A DNA stretch of 64,000 bases from Bacteroidia bacterium (GTDB lineage Bacteria; Bacteroidota; Bacteroidia; J057; JAIXKT01), in assembly GCA_026932145.1 (NCBI GenBank), contig JAIXKT010000046.1, positions 10,602-74,601 on the forward strand, read 5' to 3'. A program made the position numbers and the translations under genes. Numbering within the stretch: the first letter of the stretch is position 1; the number at the start of each line of letters is the position of its first letter. Of this stretch, positions 54,474-63,727 are shown piece after piece. A model generated the notes under the pieces. That model was not told the origin of the DNA. It worked only from the letters and a program-made list of their open reading frames with translations, and made no database searches.

Positions 54474-57400
54474 ATGGTTAGAAAGTTGGCTTACACAATA
54501 AGAATATTGTTGGTAGTAGGATTGTTTTTCTCTATAAAGACTGAAATCAATGCACAATCTATTTTTAAAGGTATAACAGATATTCACGGAGGGTGCGGAG
54601 TTCGTTCCCTTGACGGTAAATATGTAGTTATGTTGCCATATTCGGCGAACGGTAATATTGTGTTTGCCGTATTAGATTCCACAGGAGATGTTTTAACATC
54701 TCCTACCTACCCAATGTGTTCTTGGCCGGCACTTTCTAATAGCCACCGCGAACCCAGAAGAATTATTGCCTTATCAGATACCAGCTTTGTTGGCTTATAC
54801 TACGATACCGGCATTCGCTGTTTTGGAATTATGCGATTTAAGCCGGGAAATGGAATTTTATATGATATACAAATAGACACAGCCAAAACCTATTACCCCA
54901 GCCAAACACAAAATGGCGAAAAAATGCTGATTGATGATAATGGAGATTTATTGGTATTGCTGCCATTAGAAAAATCCATTCTAAGTACTTCCACTGGAGC
55001 GCATTTTACTTTGTGCCGCTTTAACCCAAATACCGGAAGTTTAATATCTTCTCGTTGTTATGGGGGCTTAAAGCAAGATCATCCTGCGTCTATGATTCAC
55101 ACACAAGGCAACGGTCTCTTATTAATCGGCTCAACATCACTAGGAATGGTTCCCGGAACGTCAATTGCGCCACAGGGAAGAATTGTTAAATTAGACGCAC
55201 AAGATTCGGTTCAATGGACACTTATTTTTGTTGATACGAACGCTATAGCAGGAACTTACCCGCAAGCTGCTACTGAATTAGCAAATGGAGATTTTTTGGT
55301 GATTGGAAACGCCTATAGTAATCATAGCTTTCTATGCCGAATTTCTAATTCAGGGAATATTATTTGGAGTAAAACCATATCGGGAACGTCTTCCTCGTGG
55401 TCAGAAATAGAATTAATTGCTCCTGATAAAATTGTGCTTACCGGAGTTTCTCAGCCAAATGGCTGGGATCCCACAACTACAATAGCTGAATTGGATACTG
55501 CCGGTAATTTTATTCGAGGTATGGCCTATGGTACCCAGCAATTTGATTACGGAAAAATCGTTTATAGAAATACCGCTACCGGAACTTATACCTTAATCGG
55601 TTATTCTCAGAATGTATTTAGCTCCGGCTTAGATGGAGTTACATTTATTCAAACGGATGCTAACCTTAGTGCCGGATGCCATTCTATCCCGATAACTGTT
55701 TCGTCTTCTACTTCCTATACCAAGCAAATGATGAACCCTCAAATGGCACGAATAGAAACAGCGAATACTACCAATATACCGTATCAACGAAGTATCGTTA
55801 CGTTAACGACCGAAGTGGTATGTGCCGTCTGCATAGCAAATGCAGGGCAAGACCAAAATACTTGCCTGAGTACCGCAACACTTACCGGAAATCAACCAAA
55901 TGGAAACTCCGGAATATGGACACAAGTAAGTGGCCCCATTACAGTAACAATTCAAAGCCCAAGTGCCGCTACTACCACAATAACCGGAATGACCCAAGCC
56001 GGAAACTATGCTTTTGCATGGCATCTGAACGGAACCGGTTGCCAGCAACCTAACGATACAGTTGTTATTCATGTTTCTCCAGTACCCAAACCTTTCATCG
56101 GAAATGACACTACGGTTTGTGCCGGCAGCTCTTTTTTGATAGGTGCTCAAACTCTCCCCCCAAATTTAACAATTCGCTGGAAACCAGCAATATACCTAAG
56201 TGATTCAACCATTGCTCGCCCAACCTTTACAGGAATAACTCCGCAGCAGTCCTCAATCACACAAACTTATATTATGACTGTTAGTAGCGGTACAAACTGT
56301 TTCGCCTCAGATACAATTCAAATCACAATAAATCCGGCAGATAGTGTGTTTTTGCTACAAAAGACTAACCCTAATTGTAATGGAGCGCAAAATGGAGAGT
56401 TAGAAGTTAAATTCAATTCTGGAACTATTCCAATTCAATACCAGTGGTCATCCGGTCAAATTGGATCCCATATTACCGGATTACAAGCTGGTAACTATCA
56501 AGTTACAGCTACAGATGCAAATGGATGTGTGGCCAAAGCAAGATTTATTTTATCAAACCCACCAAGCATTTCTGCACAAATCCAAGGATTAGCACCCAGT
56601 TGCAATCAAAATAACGGTTGGCTAAAAATAGCTTCATTACAAAATGCTACCTTACCTGTTACATATTCATGGAATACCGGCTCAACTGCCGATTCTGTAA
56701 TGGGGCTAAATGCCGGCTATTACAAAGTAACAATACAAGACATTAAAGGATGTACTTTAACTTGGGATACCACCTTAACGGTGATTTCGCCGTTTAATGT
56801 TCAGGTTAATATACGGGAAATTAGTTGCATAGGTGATTCAAATGGGCAAATTTCGCTGAATATCACTCAAGGATTGCCGCCATATACAGTTCAATGGAAT
56901 AACGGCACAAGCGGAACAGTGCTTTCTAACTTAGCATCAGGTAGTTATAGCTGCACTATTTCAGATGCTACGGGTTGTACTATAAACCGGCAATTCACCT
57001 TAAACCCTCCTCCCAAAATAGATACTACCTTTTCCCGCATTATAGCACCAGCTTGTTTTGGTGAGGCAACGGGTAGTATTCGGATAGGCGTAACTGCCGG
57101 AACTCGCTCTTTTACAGTAAGATGGCAAGATGGGCAAACAGGACTCTCTCGGCAAAATATACCCGCCGGCACTTATATAGCTACTGTTACCGATACAATG
57201 GGATGTCAAAAACGCTTTACCTTTGTAGTCCCTAATGGCGCAAATTTAACCTACACTACTTCTGTTAATCAAATTTCATGCATCGGAGTAAATGATGGTT
57301 CTATCACAATTTCGCCTCATGGCGGAACGCCCCCGTATTCATTCCTTTGGAGCAACGGCAGCACACAACCAAGTATTTCTAACCTAAACCAAGGAATATA

Positions 57401-58223
57401 TCGCATAACAATTACCGAAAGTGGGGGATGTTCTAAAAGAGATTCTTTTACTATAAATAACCCAACTCCTTTAATATCCAATGCACAAGTAGTTCCGGTA
57501 CATTGTACCGAAATTACCAATAATGGATCTATCCATTTATATCCAAGTGGTGCAAATCCACCCATTCGTGTTGTTTGGGAAAATGGGGATACTAATCAGC
57601 TTAGGGAGAATTTAACCAACGGCTGGTATCGTTTTACCCTAAGCAACACTCGCGGCTGCACCACCAGAGATTCAATATATGTTCCGGTACTACCGCCACC
57701 CAATCCACGTATTTTAACAACTCCGGCATTACCTGCGCAAATGATTTATGGCCAAGAAGTTTCTTTAACCATCCAAAATCCACAAGCACAGTCAATTTAT
57801 CGTTGGATAATCGGGGATCTAACCTTAGTGGGTAGTAATGTGAGCTTTCGGGCAGAAAGAACCGGCACTTATTCGGTTTCTTTAGAAGCTACGGATTCTT
57901 TGGGTTGCCAAACCGTTATACCTTGCGGCATCATTGTTATACAAGCAGACCACCATGTGTATGTACCTACGGGATTTTCTCCTAACGGAGATCAAAAAAA
58001 TGATACATGGACAATCATTACTACTGGAACCAAGCAATTTGATATTAAGCTCTTTAATCGCTGGGGAATGCTTGTTTTTCATTCTACAGAAACCCAACCG
58101 GTATGGGACGGAAAATTAAATGGTGAAGATGCACCGGAAGGCGTTTATGTTTGGTATTATGAATCTACCGGCTTTGATAAGTCTATTAAAGTGGAAACAG
58201 GAACTTTAAGCCTTATTCGATAG
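54474..58223 (+). CDS. Large SprB-repeat surface protein with T9SS type B sorting domain
   Basis: A 1249-residue secreted protein. Signal peptide LAYTIRILLVVGLFFSIKTE, then INAQ. Residues ~30-440 have a beta-propeller-like pattern of short repeats (GDLLVLLPLEKS, GNGLLLIGSTSLG, GDFLVIGNAYSNH). A PKD/Ig-like region follows (CIANAGQDQNTCLSTATLTG, about 450-540). Then six SprB-type repeats of ~75 residues span about 630-1070, each opening with a Cys-x-G-x-x-x-G motif (SCIGDSNGQISLNI, ACFGEATGSIRIGV, SCIGVNDGSITISP) and closing with GC. The C-terminus is the CHU-type domain (VYVPTGFSPNGDQKNDTWTI, FNRWGMLVF, VWDGKLNGEDAPEGVYVWYY). SprB repeats occur in gliding-motility adhesins; a surface adhesin role is inferred. 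Confidence 0.9.
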   Translation: MVRKLAYTIRILLVVGLFFSIKTEINAQSIFKGITDIHGGCGVRSLDGKYVVMLPYSANGNIVFAVLDSTGDVLTSPTYPMCSWPALSNSHREPRRIIALSDTSFVGLYYDTGIRCFGIMRFKPGNGILYDIQIDTAKTYYPSQTQNGEKMLIDDNGDLLVLLPLEKSILSTSTGAHFTLCRFNPNTGSLISSRCYGGLKQDHPASMIHTQGNGLLLIGSTSLGMVPGTSIAPQGRIVKLDAQDSVQWTLIFVDTNAIAGTYPQAATELANGDFLVIGNAYSNHSFLCRISNSGNIIWSKTISGTSSSWSEIELIAPDKIVLTGVSQPNGWDPTTTIAELDTAGNFIRGMAYGTQQFDYGKIVYRNTATGTYTLIGYSQNVFSSGLDGVTFIQTDANLSAGCHSIPITVSSSTSYTKQMMNPQMARIETANTTNIPYQRSIVTLTTEVVCAVCIANAGQDQNTCLSTATLTGNQPNGNSGIWTQVSGPITVTIQSPSAATTTITGMTQAGNYAFAWHLNGTGCQQPNDTVVIHVSPVPKPFIGNDTTVCAGSSFLIGAQTLPPNLTIRWKPAIYLSDSTIARPTFTGITPQQSSITQTYIMTVSSGTNCFASDTIQITINPADSVFLLQKTNPNCNGAQNGELEVKFNSGTIPIQYQWSSGQIGSHITGLQAGNYQVTATDANGCVAKARFILSNPPSISAQIQGLAPSCNQNNGWLKIASLQNATLPVTYSWNTGSTADSVMGLNAGYYKVTIQDIKGCTLTWDTTLTVISPFNVQVNIREISCIGDSNGQISLNITQGLPPYTVQWNNGTSGTVLSNLASGSYSCTISDATGCTINRQFTLNPPPKIDTTFSRIIAPACFGEATGSIRIGVTAGTRSFTVRWQDGQTGLSRQNIPAGTYIATVTDTMGCQKRFTFVVPNGANLTYTTSVNQISCIGVNDGSITISPHGGTPPYSFLWSNGSTQPSISNLNQGIYRITITESGGCSKRDSFTINNPTPLISNAQVVPVHCTEITNNGSIHLYPSGANPPIRVVWENGDTNQLRENLTNGWYRFTLSNTRGCTTRDSIYVPVLPPPNPRILTTPALPAQMIYGQEVSLTIQNPQAQSIYRWIIGDLTLVGSNVSFRAERTGTYSVSLEATDSLGCQTVIPCGIIVIQADHHVYVPTGFSPNGDQKNDTWTIITTGTKQFDIKLFNRWGMLVFHSTETQPVWDGKLNGEDAPEGVYVWYYESTGFDKSIKVETGTLSLIR

Positions 58224-61000: not shown

Positions 61001-63166
61001 CTACACAAAAAGCACATAGAATATCAACGCCGGATAAAGTATTGCCAATAATAGCCGAAATCGCTGTAGTTTATAGGTTTTCATATATTCTGCATCATAA
61101 ATTGAATTTAGAATAATAACGCTGACAAAAGAGAGAAACACCACAAAGAAGGTTAGCCAAAAAAGTAAGTCTGCTCGGGTCAGATAATTACTATTTGGAA
61201 TCATTTCGCTTAATGAAATACTGAATGCTACAATAGAGAAGAAAATACCGACACTCACCTCTCCAATATTTTCAAAGCTTAAATCTTGGATAAATAGAAT
61301 AGCGACTCCCACAAACCCGATCAAGATAAGCGGCAAAATAATTTGTAAATAACTGCGTAACGCAACCCGCTCTACAATTAACCGAAAAATAAAGTTTTTA
61401 AATTTCTTTAATGTTCCGGGTTTTCCTTGCGGGTCGCCTTTGATACTTTTAGAAATTAAATTATCTATGGTTATGTAGGTTTCAAGTTTATTCCAACCGG
61501 ATACTTTAAATTTTTCAATAGTTTCTGAATCAAGCATCAATGCACTTTGGTCAAAACTGATTTTTAATCGGTCATCGGGGCTTAATATTTCTATATTAAT
61601 GGAAAGTTCTTGGGTATCAAAAGGGAAGTCATTCAGCACATAGTCCACATAAAAAATGCCGGAAACGCGGTAAAGCCGGTAAAGAACCCCCTTATCTACA
61701 TTTTCAATAATCATCTCTCGGGTACTTTCGCTGCTTTTCATATTTTGAAAAGAAATATATTTTTCAACGTCTTCACTGCTGCTATCCATCTTGACCCAGT
61801 AATAAAAATCTGCCGTAAAAGAGTTAGAGGCTATGTTTAGGTCATAAATATCCTGAATTTCCATGCCGAAGAGTAAATTGGGGATGATTTCTCGCCGGTT
61901 ATTCAGTTGCTTAGACATAGAAAGAAGTTTCCCTTGATGATAGCGGCTAAAAAATAGCTCAGGAACTAAAACGCCTTTATTATCAAACGAATAAATATCA
62001 TTTTCACTGGCTAATGTGCCTCCCCTCAATAACTTAAACTGGTCTTGAATTAATTTCCTGCTGATGTTATCGGTATGTTCATTCAGGATTTTATGGAGTT
62101 CTTTATGGTTAGGTATTGACTTTTGGAGGTTCTTCAAGGCATCATTTTTGATGATTGCCTGCCGAATAAAACTCATGGCATCTACACAGCGTTTAACAAA
62201 CAGGGGAGCATTTACATTGTTAAAAACTTCGGGGTATTTAACCGAAAAATCACTTAAATCACGGTGTACTTTTTGGGACATTGCATCCGTTGGGTTAGTG
62301 ATTAGAATGAGTTCATTGTTATTTCCAGTCCCAAAGCCTTTGATAGCATCTCCATTAGCAATATAGGCATGGCCGATTAAACGTAAATCATCAAGATTTT
62401 TGTCTAAATACTGCAATAACTCATTTCCCCAGTTGCTGTGCACATTGATAACCAATAGTTTCTTTTTTTGTTCAGGATAAGTCGCGTAATATCGTTTGAT
62501 GTCTTGGGTGATTTTGGCCAAGCTATCTGGGTTTATTGTTTGGGCTGATGAAACACTGAATATTTTGTTTATCAATATATTACGATTTTTAAATGCTTCG
62601 TAATAACCCTGTGTTAGGGTGTAGTCTTGTTCGGTGATAAAATTAACGTTGTGTTCTTGCAGCGCATTGTGGATGTAAATAGCGAGGTCTTCTGGTACTT
62701 CATCACTATTTCCGGTAAAAATAGAGGCTTGCCCAAAGTCCACATTGTTATGGTCTGCATTCATTGCAATAACGGGTAGTTTATATCGCCGAATAATATC
62801 ATGGGCAGCACCGATGTGCTTTCCCCAAGTATTATCAATTATGGCAATAATGGTCGTGTCTGCTGCAATCAATTTATAAACACTATCAGCACCGCTGGCT
62901 GTACGCTGACAATCAAAGGTCTTTAGCTGCAACTGAACACCCGATAATTCTTTGTTTAATTCTGCAACATATTGCTCTAAAACATATTGATGCAGCACAT
63001 CAAACTTATTTTTTTCTTGGTCTTTAATAGGGGTTGCGCTATTTGCATCTGTGAATCTACCCACATAAGCAATATATCGTACGGAACTTTTTTTTTCTCC
63101 ACAACTAAACAGTAAAGTAATTAAAACTGTACTAATCAGGAAAGTACGAACGATTTGAAAAATCAT
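61001..63166 (-). CDS. Lipoprotein fusing a periplasmic-binding-protein-like domain to a pentameric ligand-gated ion channel
   Basis: A 721-residue protein from ATG 63166, which opens a lipoprotein signal (MIFQIVRTFLISTVLITLLF, then SC; lipobox LFSC, Cys22). Residues ~30-390 resemble a type 1 periplasmic binding protein: YIAYVGRFTDANSATPIKDQ, then TTIIAIIDNTWGKHIGAAHD, YKLPVIAMNADHNNVDF, KKLLVINVHSNWGNELLQYL. Residues ~430-590 are a Cys-loop-type ligand-binding sandwich without the cysteines: IQDIYDLNIASNSFTADFYY, then the loop DFPFDTQELSINIEI (about 513-527). Four helices follow: M1 606-626 with a conserved Pro (LQIILPLILIGFVG), M2 ~635-655, SEMIPNSNYLTRADL, M3 665-688, M4 704-721. This is the full channel topology. 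Earlier in-frame starts (to 63313) run through the promoter region and are rejected. Confidence 0.85.
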   Translation of the reverse strand: MIFQIVRTFLISTVLITLLFSCGEKKSSVRYIAYVGRFTDANSATPIKDQEKNKFDVLHQYVLEQYVAELNKELSGVQLQLKTFDCQRTASGADSVYKLIAADTTIIAIIDNTWGKHIGAAHDIIRRYKLPVIAMNADHNNVDFGQASIFTGNSDEVPEDLAIYIHNALQEHNVNFITEQDYTLTQGYYEAFKNRNILINKIFSVSSAQTINPDSLAKITQDIKRYYATYPEQKKKLLVINVHSNWGNELLQYLDKNLDDLRLIGHAYIANGDAIKGFGTGNNNELILITNPTDAMSQKVHRDLSDFSVKYPEVFNNVNAPLFVKRCVDAMSFIRQAIIKNDALKNLQKSIPNHKELHKILNEHTDNISRKLIQDQFKLLRGGTLASENDIYSFDNKGVLVPELFFSRYHQGKLLSMSKQLNNRREIIPNLLFGMEIQDIYDLNIASNSFTADFYYWVKMDSSSEDVEKYISFQNMKSSESTREMIIENVDKGVLYRLYRVSGIFYVDYVLNDFPFDTQELSINIEILSPDDRLKISFDQSALMLDSETIEKFKVSGWNKLETYITIDNLISKSIKGDPQGKPGTLKKFKNFIFRLIVERVALRSYLQIILPLILIGFVGVAILFIQDLSFENIGEVSVGIFFSIVAFSISLSEMIPNSNYLTRADLLFWLTFFVVFLSFVSVIILNSIYDAEYMKTYKLQRFRLLLAILYPALIFYVLFV

Positions 63167-63301: not shown

Positions 63302-63727
63302 ATGCCGTTTCAAAGTGTAATTAGGAAAGTTAATATTTGGGGACTCGTTTTTGCCATAGTTACCGTTTTGATTATGGGCTGTAAAAGCTCAAAAAACGAT
63401 AATCCGGTTCCTAACAACCTAAATACCACCTATACTCCCGGAACAGGCCGCCTAATTACCCGCATATTTGGGAGAAATGGAAATGGTAATAGCGCCGTTA
63501 GGGATGCCACTGTTACGCTCTATATGTCCAACACAGATTTACAAAATGATTATTTTTTGTACGAACTTTTAACCAACGGGTCAGGAGAAGCAGATTTTGG
63601 CTTTTTAAATGCCGGAAATTATTATCTATATGTTAGTAAGCGGCTTAATGATAGTTTGTATTCACGGATTGATGTAGTGCAGGTTCAGGAAGCAAAAGAT
63701 AACATTCGGAATATAAATCTGTATTAG
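63302..63727 (+). CDS. Small putative lipoprotein with a prealbumin-like domain
   Basis: A 141-residue lipoprotein. The signal peptide (VNIWGLVFAIVTVLIMGCKS) ends in lipobox IMGC. A short Asn/Pro-rich spacer leads to residues ~50-140, a beta sandwich of the carboxypeptidase-regulatory/SpaA-like type (GRLITRIFGRNGNGNSAVRD, ATVTLYMSNTDLQNDY, GSGEADFGFLNAGNYYLYVS, DVVQVQEAKDNIRNINLY). No enzymatic motif. It probably stabilises or binds another envelope protein; this is inference. It is divergent from the fusion channel and followed 44 bases later by an ABC permease gene. Confidence 0.75.
   Translation: MPFQSVIRKVNIWGLVFAIVTVLIMGCKSSKNDNPVPNNLNTTYTPGTGRLITRIFGRNGNGNSAVRDATVTLYMSNTDLQNDYFLYELLTNGSGEADFGFLNAGNYYLYVSKRLNDSLYSRIDVVQVQEAKDNIRNINLY

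Follow-up and report, generated by a model that had tools for sequence, protein, structure and literature searches.

A predicted fusion of a periplasmic flytrap domain with a pentameric ligand-gated ion channel in Bacteroidota genomes

The window, a stretch of 64,000 nucleotides of contig JAIXKT010000046.1 from a Bacteroidia bacterium (GenBank assembly GCA_026932145.1), holds an intact open frame on the minus strand that encodes 721 amino acids followed by a stop codon. Its features are listed in Table 1. The frame was found exactly where a preliminary description of this DNA, which had not given the strand, had placed it. The signal sequence begins at the ATG, and an alternative, longer in-frame start (TTG) is present at 63313. 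The hydropathy of the translation comprises one N-terminal hydrophobic segment (residues 1-23) and four C-terminal ones. The sequence marks named in the preliminary description were all located in the 721-residue translation, namely the lipobox (LLFSC, ending at Cys22), DFPFDTQ (residues 513-519), the M1 proline (P612), and the M2-M3 segment EMIPNSNYLTRAD (residues 654-666).

Table 1. Coordinates of the fusion gene and of its predicted features in the window.
Feature	Position	Strand	Basis
Fusion-protein CDS	61001..63166	-	721 aa, ATG at 63166; full-length homologues
Signal sequence and lipobox LLFSC, residues 1-22	63101..63166	-	PS51257-type pattern; hydrophobic segment 1-23; Cys22 lipidation predicted
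Type 1 periplasmic-binding-protein (Venus flytrap) domain, residues ~29-417	61916..63082	-	Pfam Peripla_BP_6, Foldseek LivJ, model
pLGIC extracellular beta-sandwich, residues ~428-600	61367..61885	-	Profile matches; low-confidence part of model
Pro-loop F/YPxD motif (F514 P515 F516 D517)	61616..61627	-	Motif match
M1 helix, residues 602-625, with P612	61292..61363	-	Model and hydrophobic segment
M2 pore helix, residues 631-655	61202..61276	-	Model and alignment
E632 (-2'), I634 (0'), E636 (2'): acidic pore mouth, with the basic residue usual at 0' missing	61259..61273	-	Alignment
M3 helix, residues 664-689	61100..61177	-	Model
M4 helix, residues 701-720	61007..61066	-	Model

The gene stands alone in the window, convergent with a gene that weakly matches MurJ-type flippases and, on its other side, divergent from a small gene that is lipoprotein-like and has no Pfam match. 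A search of the source genome returned one copy of the fusion gene and no second relative. Elsewhere in the window (54474-58223, plus strand), a 1249-residue repeat protein ends in an apparent gliding-motility/T9SS-type C-terminal domain (FSPNGDQKNDTW...GVYVWYY), which suggests a T9SS-secreted adhesin.

Scanning contigs with the single sequence returned no loci, and scanning with a two-sequence alignment returned eight. Full-length fusions were thereby found in eight other Bacteroidota metagenome-assembled genomes (MAGs) with 43-60% identity over about 700 residues. These MAGs are mostly labelled Cytophagaceae or Cytophagales, with one Chitinophagaceae and one unclassified, and one of them, L032, seems to be identical with G010, a genome from the order of the window. 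Two more carrier genomes (G493 and G545) were obtained using the flytrap profile, giving eleven fusion proteins including that of the window, all from Bacteroidota genomes. The open frame is not a chance one, since alignable full-length homologues occur in other Bacteroidota genomes, and the nine proteins that were aligned share the domain order over their whole length. The flytrap profile matched four of 395 genomes searched in the class, all with a long fused frame, and no stand-alone relative of the flytrap domain was seen in this set. The full-length profile gave no match in 395 genomes of the phylum, a sample without a known carrier and so uninformative, and Pfam Neur_chan_LBD gave none in the source genome, where all controls were equally silent, making this search uninformative as well.

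The channel half, which belongs to the family of the human nicotinic and GABA receptors, was assigned using profile matches. The window protein alone matches NCBIfam LGIC_1 at E 1.7e-5, and among the nine family members LGIC_1 matches eight and LIC all nine. Against solved structures, the channel-half profile matches the ELIC-GLIC chimera (E 3.9e-7), ELIC (E 4.5e-6), and DeCLIC (E 1.1e-4). The cysteines of the Cys-loop, which are generally missing in prokaryotic pentameric ligand-gated ion channels (pLGICs), are absent from the fusion protein. The residues described as markers of the superfamily are an F/YPxD motif in the beta6-beta7 loop with a 100% conserved proline, a beta9 tryptophan, a pre-M1 arginine, an M1 proline, and an M2-M3 proline (Jaiteh et al. 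2016, PMC4795631). The F/YPxD motif, Trp558, Arg600, Pro612, and Pro657 are invariant across the nine aligned members, save for the F/Y exchange. The assignment of this half as a predicted pLGIC is modest from the single sequence and firm once the relatives are added. In the model built from the nine-row alignment, confidence is poor for the extracellular domain, with a pLDDT of about 30-55. We infer that the fusion protein forms a pentamer and conducts ions.

The remaining channels detected in Bacteroidota stand alone, as proteins about 320-410 residues long. In a tree of the channel half, the fused proteins group as a single clade with full support (100/100) on a long branch, so one fusion event suffices within the sample. 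L020 joins this clade, as a long-branch row whose placement is unsure.

The flytrap half is weakly recognisable by sequence. Pfam Peripla_BP_6 matches the window protein at E 0.0012 and 19 bits, below the curated cut-off of 31.7 bits, and weakly matches eight of the nine members, with a best E of 1.6e-4. The only Peripla_BP_6 match over the cut-off in the source genome (contig C37, 53570-54442) lies in a 600-residue frame; frames of this length are a common size class for Peripla_BP_6 in other Bacteroidota. No sequence match was obtained with the flytrap-half profile against PDB chains, and hhalign gave nothing significant against Escherichia coli LivJ and LivK or against these two together with 30 Bacteroidota periplasmic binding proteins. 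The fold was therefore read mainly from structure prediction. AlphaFold from the single sequence was unusable (pLDDT 39), and the nine-row alignment was used for the model, with a mean pLDDT of 64.7 and about 80 in the binding region. Foldseek matched the flytrap model to LivJ at E 1.1e-14, with a TM score of up to 0.68 by target length, and the top matches were LivJ, the LIV-binding protein, Rhodospirillum rubrum 3hut, mGluR, CaSR, and GABA-B. As far as prediction can establish it, residues ~29-417 have the two-lobed, Rossmann-like alpha/beta fold of type 1 periplasmic binding proteins. The identity proposed earlier for this region stands, and the region is somewhat longer than the proposed extent of about 360 residues, because model strands at 400-417 extend the domain to ~417, including a C-terminal beta hairpin. 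With profile matches for the channel half and Foldseek matches for the flytrap half, the two-domain architecture, a periplasmic-binding-protein domain fused to a pLGIC in one chain, is confirmed; a match was found for each half, that of the binding protein being weak in sequence searches and drawn mostly from the modelled fold.

In the LIV-binding protein (LIVBP), the ligand is contacted by Ser79, Thr102, Ala100, Tyr202, and Glu226 (PMC13103812). Since the hhalign matches are weak, the mapping of this pocket onto the fusion protein carries an uncertainty of about one residue; the register at Thr102 could be off by one, and the position of Glu226 falls outside confident alignment. In this mapping, Trp114 takes the place of Ser79 and Ala137 that of Thr102 (Asp138 if the register shifts by one), all three invariant in the nine aligned members, so the Ser79/Thr102 pair for the alpha-carboxylate is not kept in these nine. 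The predicted cleft loops are otherwise strongly conserved, with D111, N112, T113, W114, and G115, N136, A137, and D138, E179, D181, and Y182, N241 and H243, G265, H266, and Y268, and P292, T293, and D294 invariant in the nine. We read this invariant set in the alignment as a putative pocket for a conserved ligand of another kind, although the conservation may instead be structural.

One alternative takes the flytrap as a module for assembly, stability, or protein docking without a small ligand, the channel being gated at the extracellular domain by protons, Ca2+, or an amine. It would explain both the missing LIV-type Ser/Thr pair and the great sequence drift from working binding proteins, and it has a precedent in DeCLIC, whose N-terminal domain is modulatory as characterised. 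The invariance of the predicted cleft-loop residues in domains that are 40-52% identical to that of the window protein goes beyond the needs of a scaffold, however, and we consider this alternative possible and distinctly the less probable one. The amino-acid sensing proposed in the preliminary description, in which the protein would be an ionotropic sensor of the LIV type, fares worse. Among the fold matches, Leu/Ile/Val-binding proteins and class C receptors that sense amino acids rank best, but the absence of the Ser/Thr carboxylate pair, with Trp114 at the Ser79 position and Ala137 or Asp138 at that of Thr102, a register uncertain by one, leaves amino-acid sensing not supported, and we regard it as improbable.

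Neighbouring genes were also compared. A gene for a membrane protein of the HGSNAT type (heparan-alpha-glucosaminide acetyltransferase, PF07786, an assignment tested on one representative) lies directly upstream of the fusion gene in five of the eight relatives, on the same strand and within a few tens of bases. It is not directly upstream in the window, L032, L033, or L038. The acetyltransferase loci are L034-L037 and L039 (e.g., L035, 6695-7858), with a DUF4919-type gene preceding in four, and suggest a possible operon partner. As a clue to the ligand, the acyltransferase neighbour was dropped, being absent beside the window gene, and no conserved neighbour pointing to a ligand was found among the loci compared.

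A lipobox-type cysteine is present in seven of the eleven members (the window protein, L032, L033, L034, L038, L040, and L043). L032 does not fit the strict lipobox pattern, which requires a basic residue among the first 12, probably owing to an over-long start. The other four (L035, L036, L037, and L039) begin with a hydrophobic segment that lacks the lipobox cysteine and may be cleaved or kept as an anchor. Judging from the motif, the window protein is likely lipidated at Cys22. The lipoprotein anchor proposed earlier thus holds as a motif for most of the family and fails for four members, so a lipid anchor is not essential to the design. In the model, Cys22 is separated from the first flytrap strand (residue 28) by about 6 residues, and the flytrap from the first strand of the extracellular domain by a linker of about 10. 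The short tethers flanking the flytrap, together with a lipobox in seven of eleven members from several genera, would suit a bridge across the periplasm, with the acylated N-terminus in the outer membrane, M1-M4 in the inner membrane, and a channel responding to envelope tension or spacing. This is very unlikely given the four members without a lipobox cysteine, and integral inner-membrane proteins are not known as substrates of lipoprotein export.

The pore departs from that of the stand-alone channels. Alignment to GLIC and ELIC places E632 at -2' and E636 at 2', with E632 aligned to the -2' glutamate of GLIC and to the cation-filter glutamate of the acetylcholine receptor beta subunit. In all eleven fused proteins, position 2' is Glu, -2' is acidic (Glu or Asp), and 0' is hydrophobic, with no basic residue at 0' in any of them. 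In most stand-alone Bacteroidota channels, 0' is Arg, -2' is Asp or Glu, and 2' is one of Gly, Ala, Thr, Ser, and Val. Across the superfamily, a basic residue at 0' is common (79% conserved; Jaiteh et al. 2016, PMC4795631) without being a defining trait. The loss of the 0' basic ring and the gain of a second acidic ring predict strong cation selectivity for the fused lineage; permeation or block by divalent ions would be a guess. Hydrophobic residues at 9' and 16' and the residues of the gating path are conserved in the fused family. Although conduction in the family is inferred from sequence, a receptor using the channel fold for signalling without conducting is the least probable alternative in view of this pore-lining pattern, the hydrophobic 9' and 16' residues, and the conservation of all gating-path residues.

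The reading preferred here, to which a probability of roughly 0.6 is given, is that of a homopentameric, cation-selective pLGIC of the inner membrane whose gating is modulated by a small solute bound in the flytrap. The fusion protein is presumably located in the inner membrane. The flytrap would sit in the periplasm, atop or beside the extracellular domain, joined to it by the linker of about 10 residues; in most members, the lipid on Cys22 would give it a further attachment to the membrane. A small solute, probably not a plain alpha-amino acid, would close the flytrap, and the short linker would relay this closure to the extracellular domain, opening the channel or shifting its sensitivity. 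Cations would then enter via the opened channel and change the membrane potential or the internal ion level. A more specific version, in which each subunit is doubly tethered (by lipid and by transmembrane helices), the flytrap serves a separate bacterial lineage as a receptor for a ligand other than an amino acid, and the stacked acidic rings at -2' and 2' make the channel divalent-permeable or strongly cation-selective, is put forward tentatively and is doubtful as a whole.

Fusions of this kind have been known since 2004. Tasneem et al. (2004, PMC549065) described fusions of PBP-I domains to channels in the alphaproteobacteria Magnetospirillum magnetotacticum and Bradyrhizobium japonicum, and fusions of MCP-N/Cache domains in Cytophaga. 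The preliminary description, which mentioned such fusions in Cytophaga-type bacteria, was right that they are in the literature, but the PBP-I type there is the alphaproteobacterial one. These PBP-I/ART-LGIC fusions have a signal sequence, the PBP-I domain, the pLGIC extracellular domain, and four helices in the same order as the window protein; they come from another phylum, and a lipid anchor is not mentioned in PMC549065. Bacterial channel fusions were proposed there to be chemotactic receptors. Genes similar to cheA and cheW are present in the source genome, and a chemotaxis role was set aside, this being too weak as evidence. A CheW and a CheA-like gene (655 aa) occur twice in that genome with identical scores (C10, 14022-14838, and C30, 5822-6638), as either a true duplication or an assembly artefact. 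On plasmid pAB510b of Azospirillum sp. B510 (L045, 2770-3858 and 3878-6681), a gene for a stand-alone pLGIC-like protein immediately precedes genes annotated for chemotaxis, which encode a CheW-type protein and then an MCP four-helix-bundle protein; this arrangement fits the older chemotaxis proposal for bacterial pLGICs.

Among characterised proteins, DeCLIC (PDB 6v4a and others) is likewise prokaryotic and a pLGIC, and it has a large N-terminal domain in the periplasm, but this consists of two beta jelly-roll lobes, whereas that of the window protein is an alpha/beta flytrap according to the model and Foldseek. By late 2025, DeCLIC was the sole pLGIC with a characterised N-terminal domain, which is modulatory and tunes gating speed. 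ELIC and GLIC have the same channel module and are the closest solved relatives by sequence, but they lack an N-terminal domain and have Q (ELIC) or T (GLIC) at 2', where the fused family has E. LivJ, LivK, and the flytraps of class C GPCRs share the fold of residues 29-417, but they are soluble or GPCR-linked, and the fused family lacks their ligand-binding Ser/Thr pair. Ionotropic glutamate receptors are likewise channels with a flytrap-type amino-terminal domain and may work somewhat similarly; their pore is unrelated, and their second binding domain is split by the pore, so the fusion protein is not a member of that family. No paper on pLGICs of Bacteroidetes was found in the open-access literature, and in the literature searched this rare Bacteroidota lineage, its unusual acidic pore, and its anchor appear to be undescribed. 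Flytrap/pLGIC fusions have apparently never been studied in the laboratory.

Flytrap fusions on the nicotinic-receptor fold have thus been predicted for two decades, and the eleven homologues, whose pocket is invariant and whose pore is odd, provide constructs for studying flytrap gating of a pLGIC. The set also bears on what bacterial pLGICs sense. The parallel with glutamate receptors would be one of convergent receptor design, and the more specific version of the preferred reading, if true, would give bacteria a ligand-gated entry system for cations, possibly Ca2+, on the nicotinic-receptor fold.
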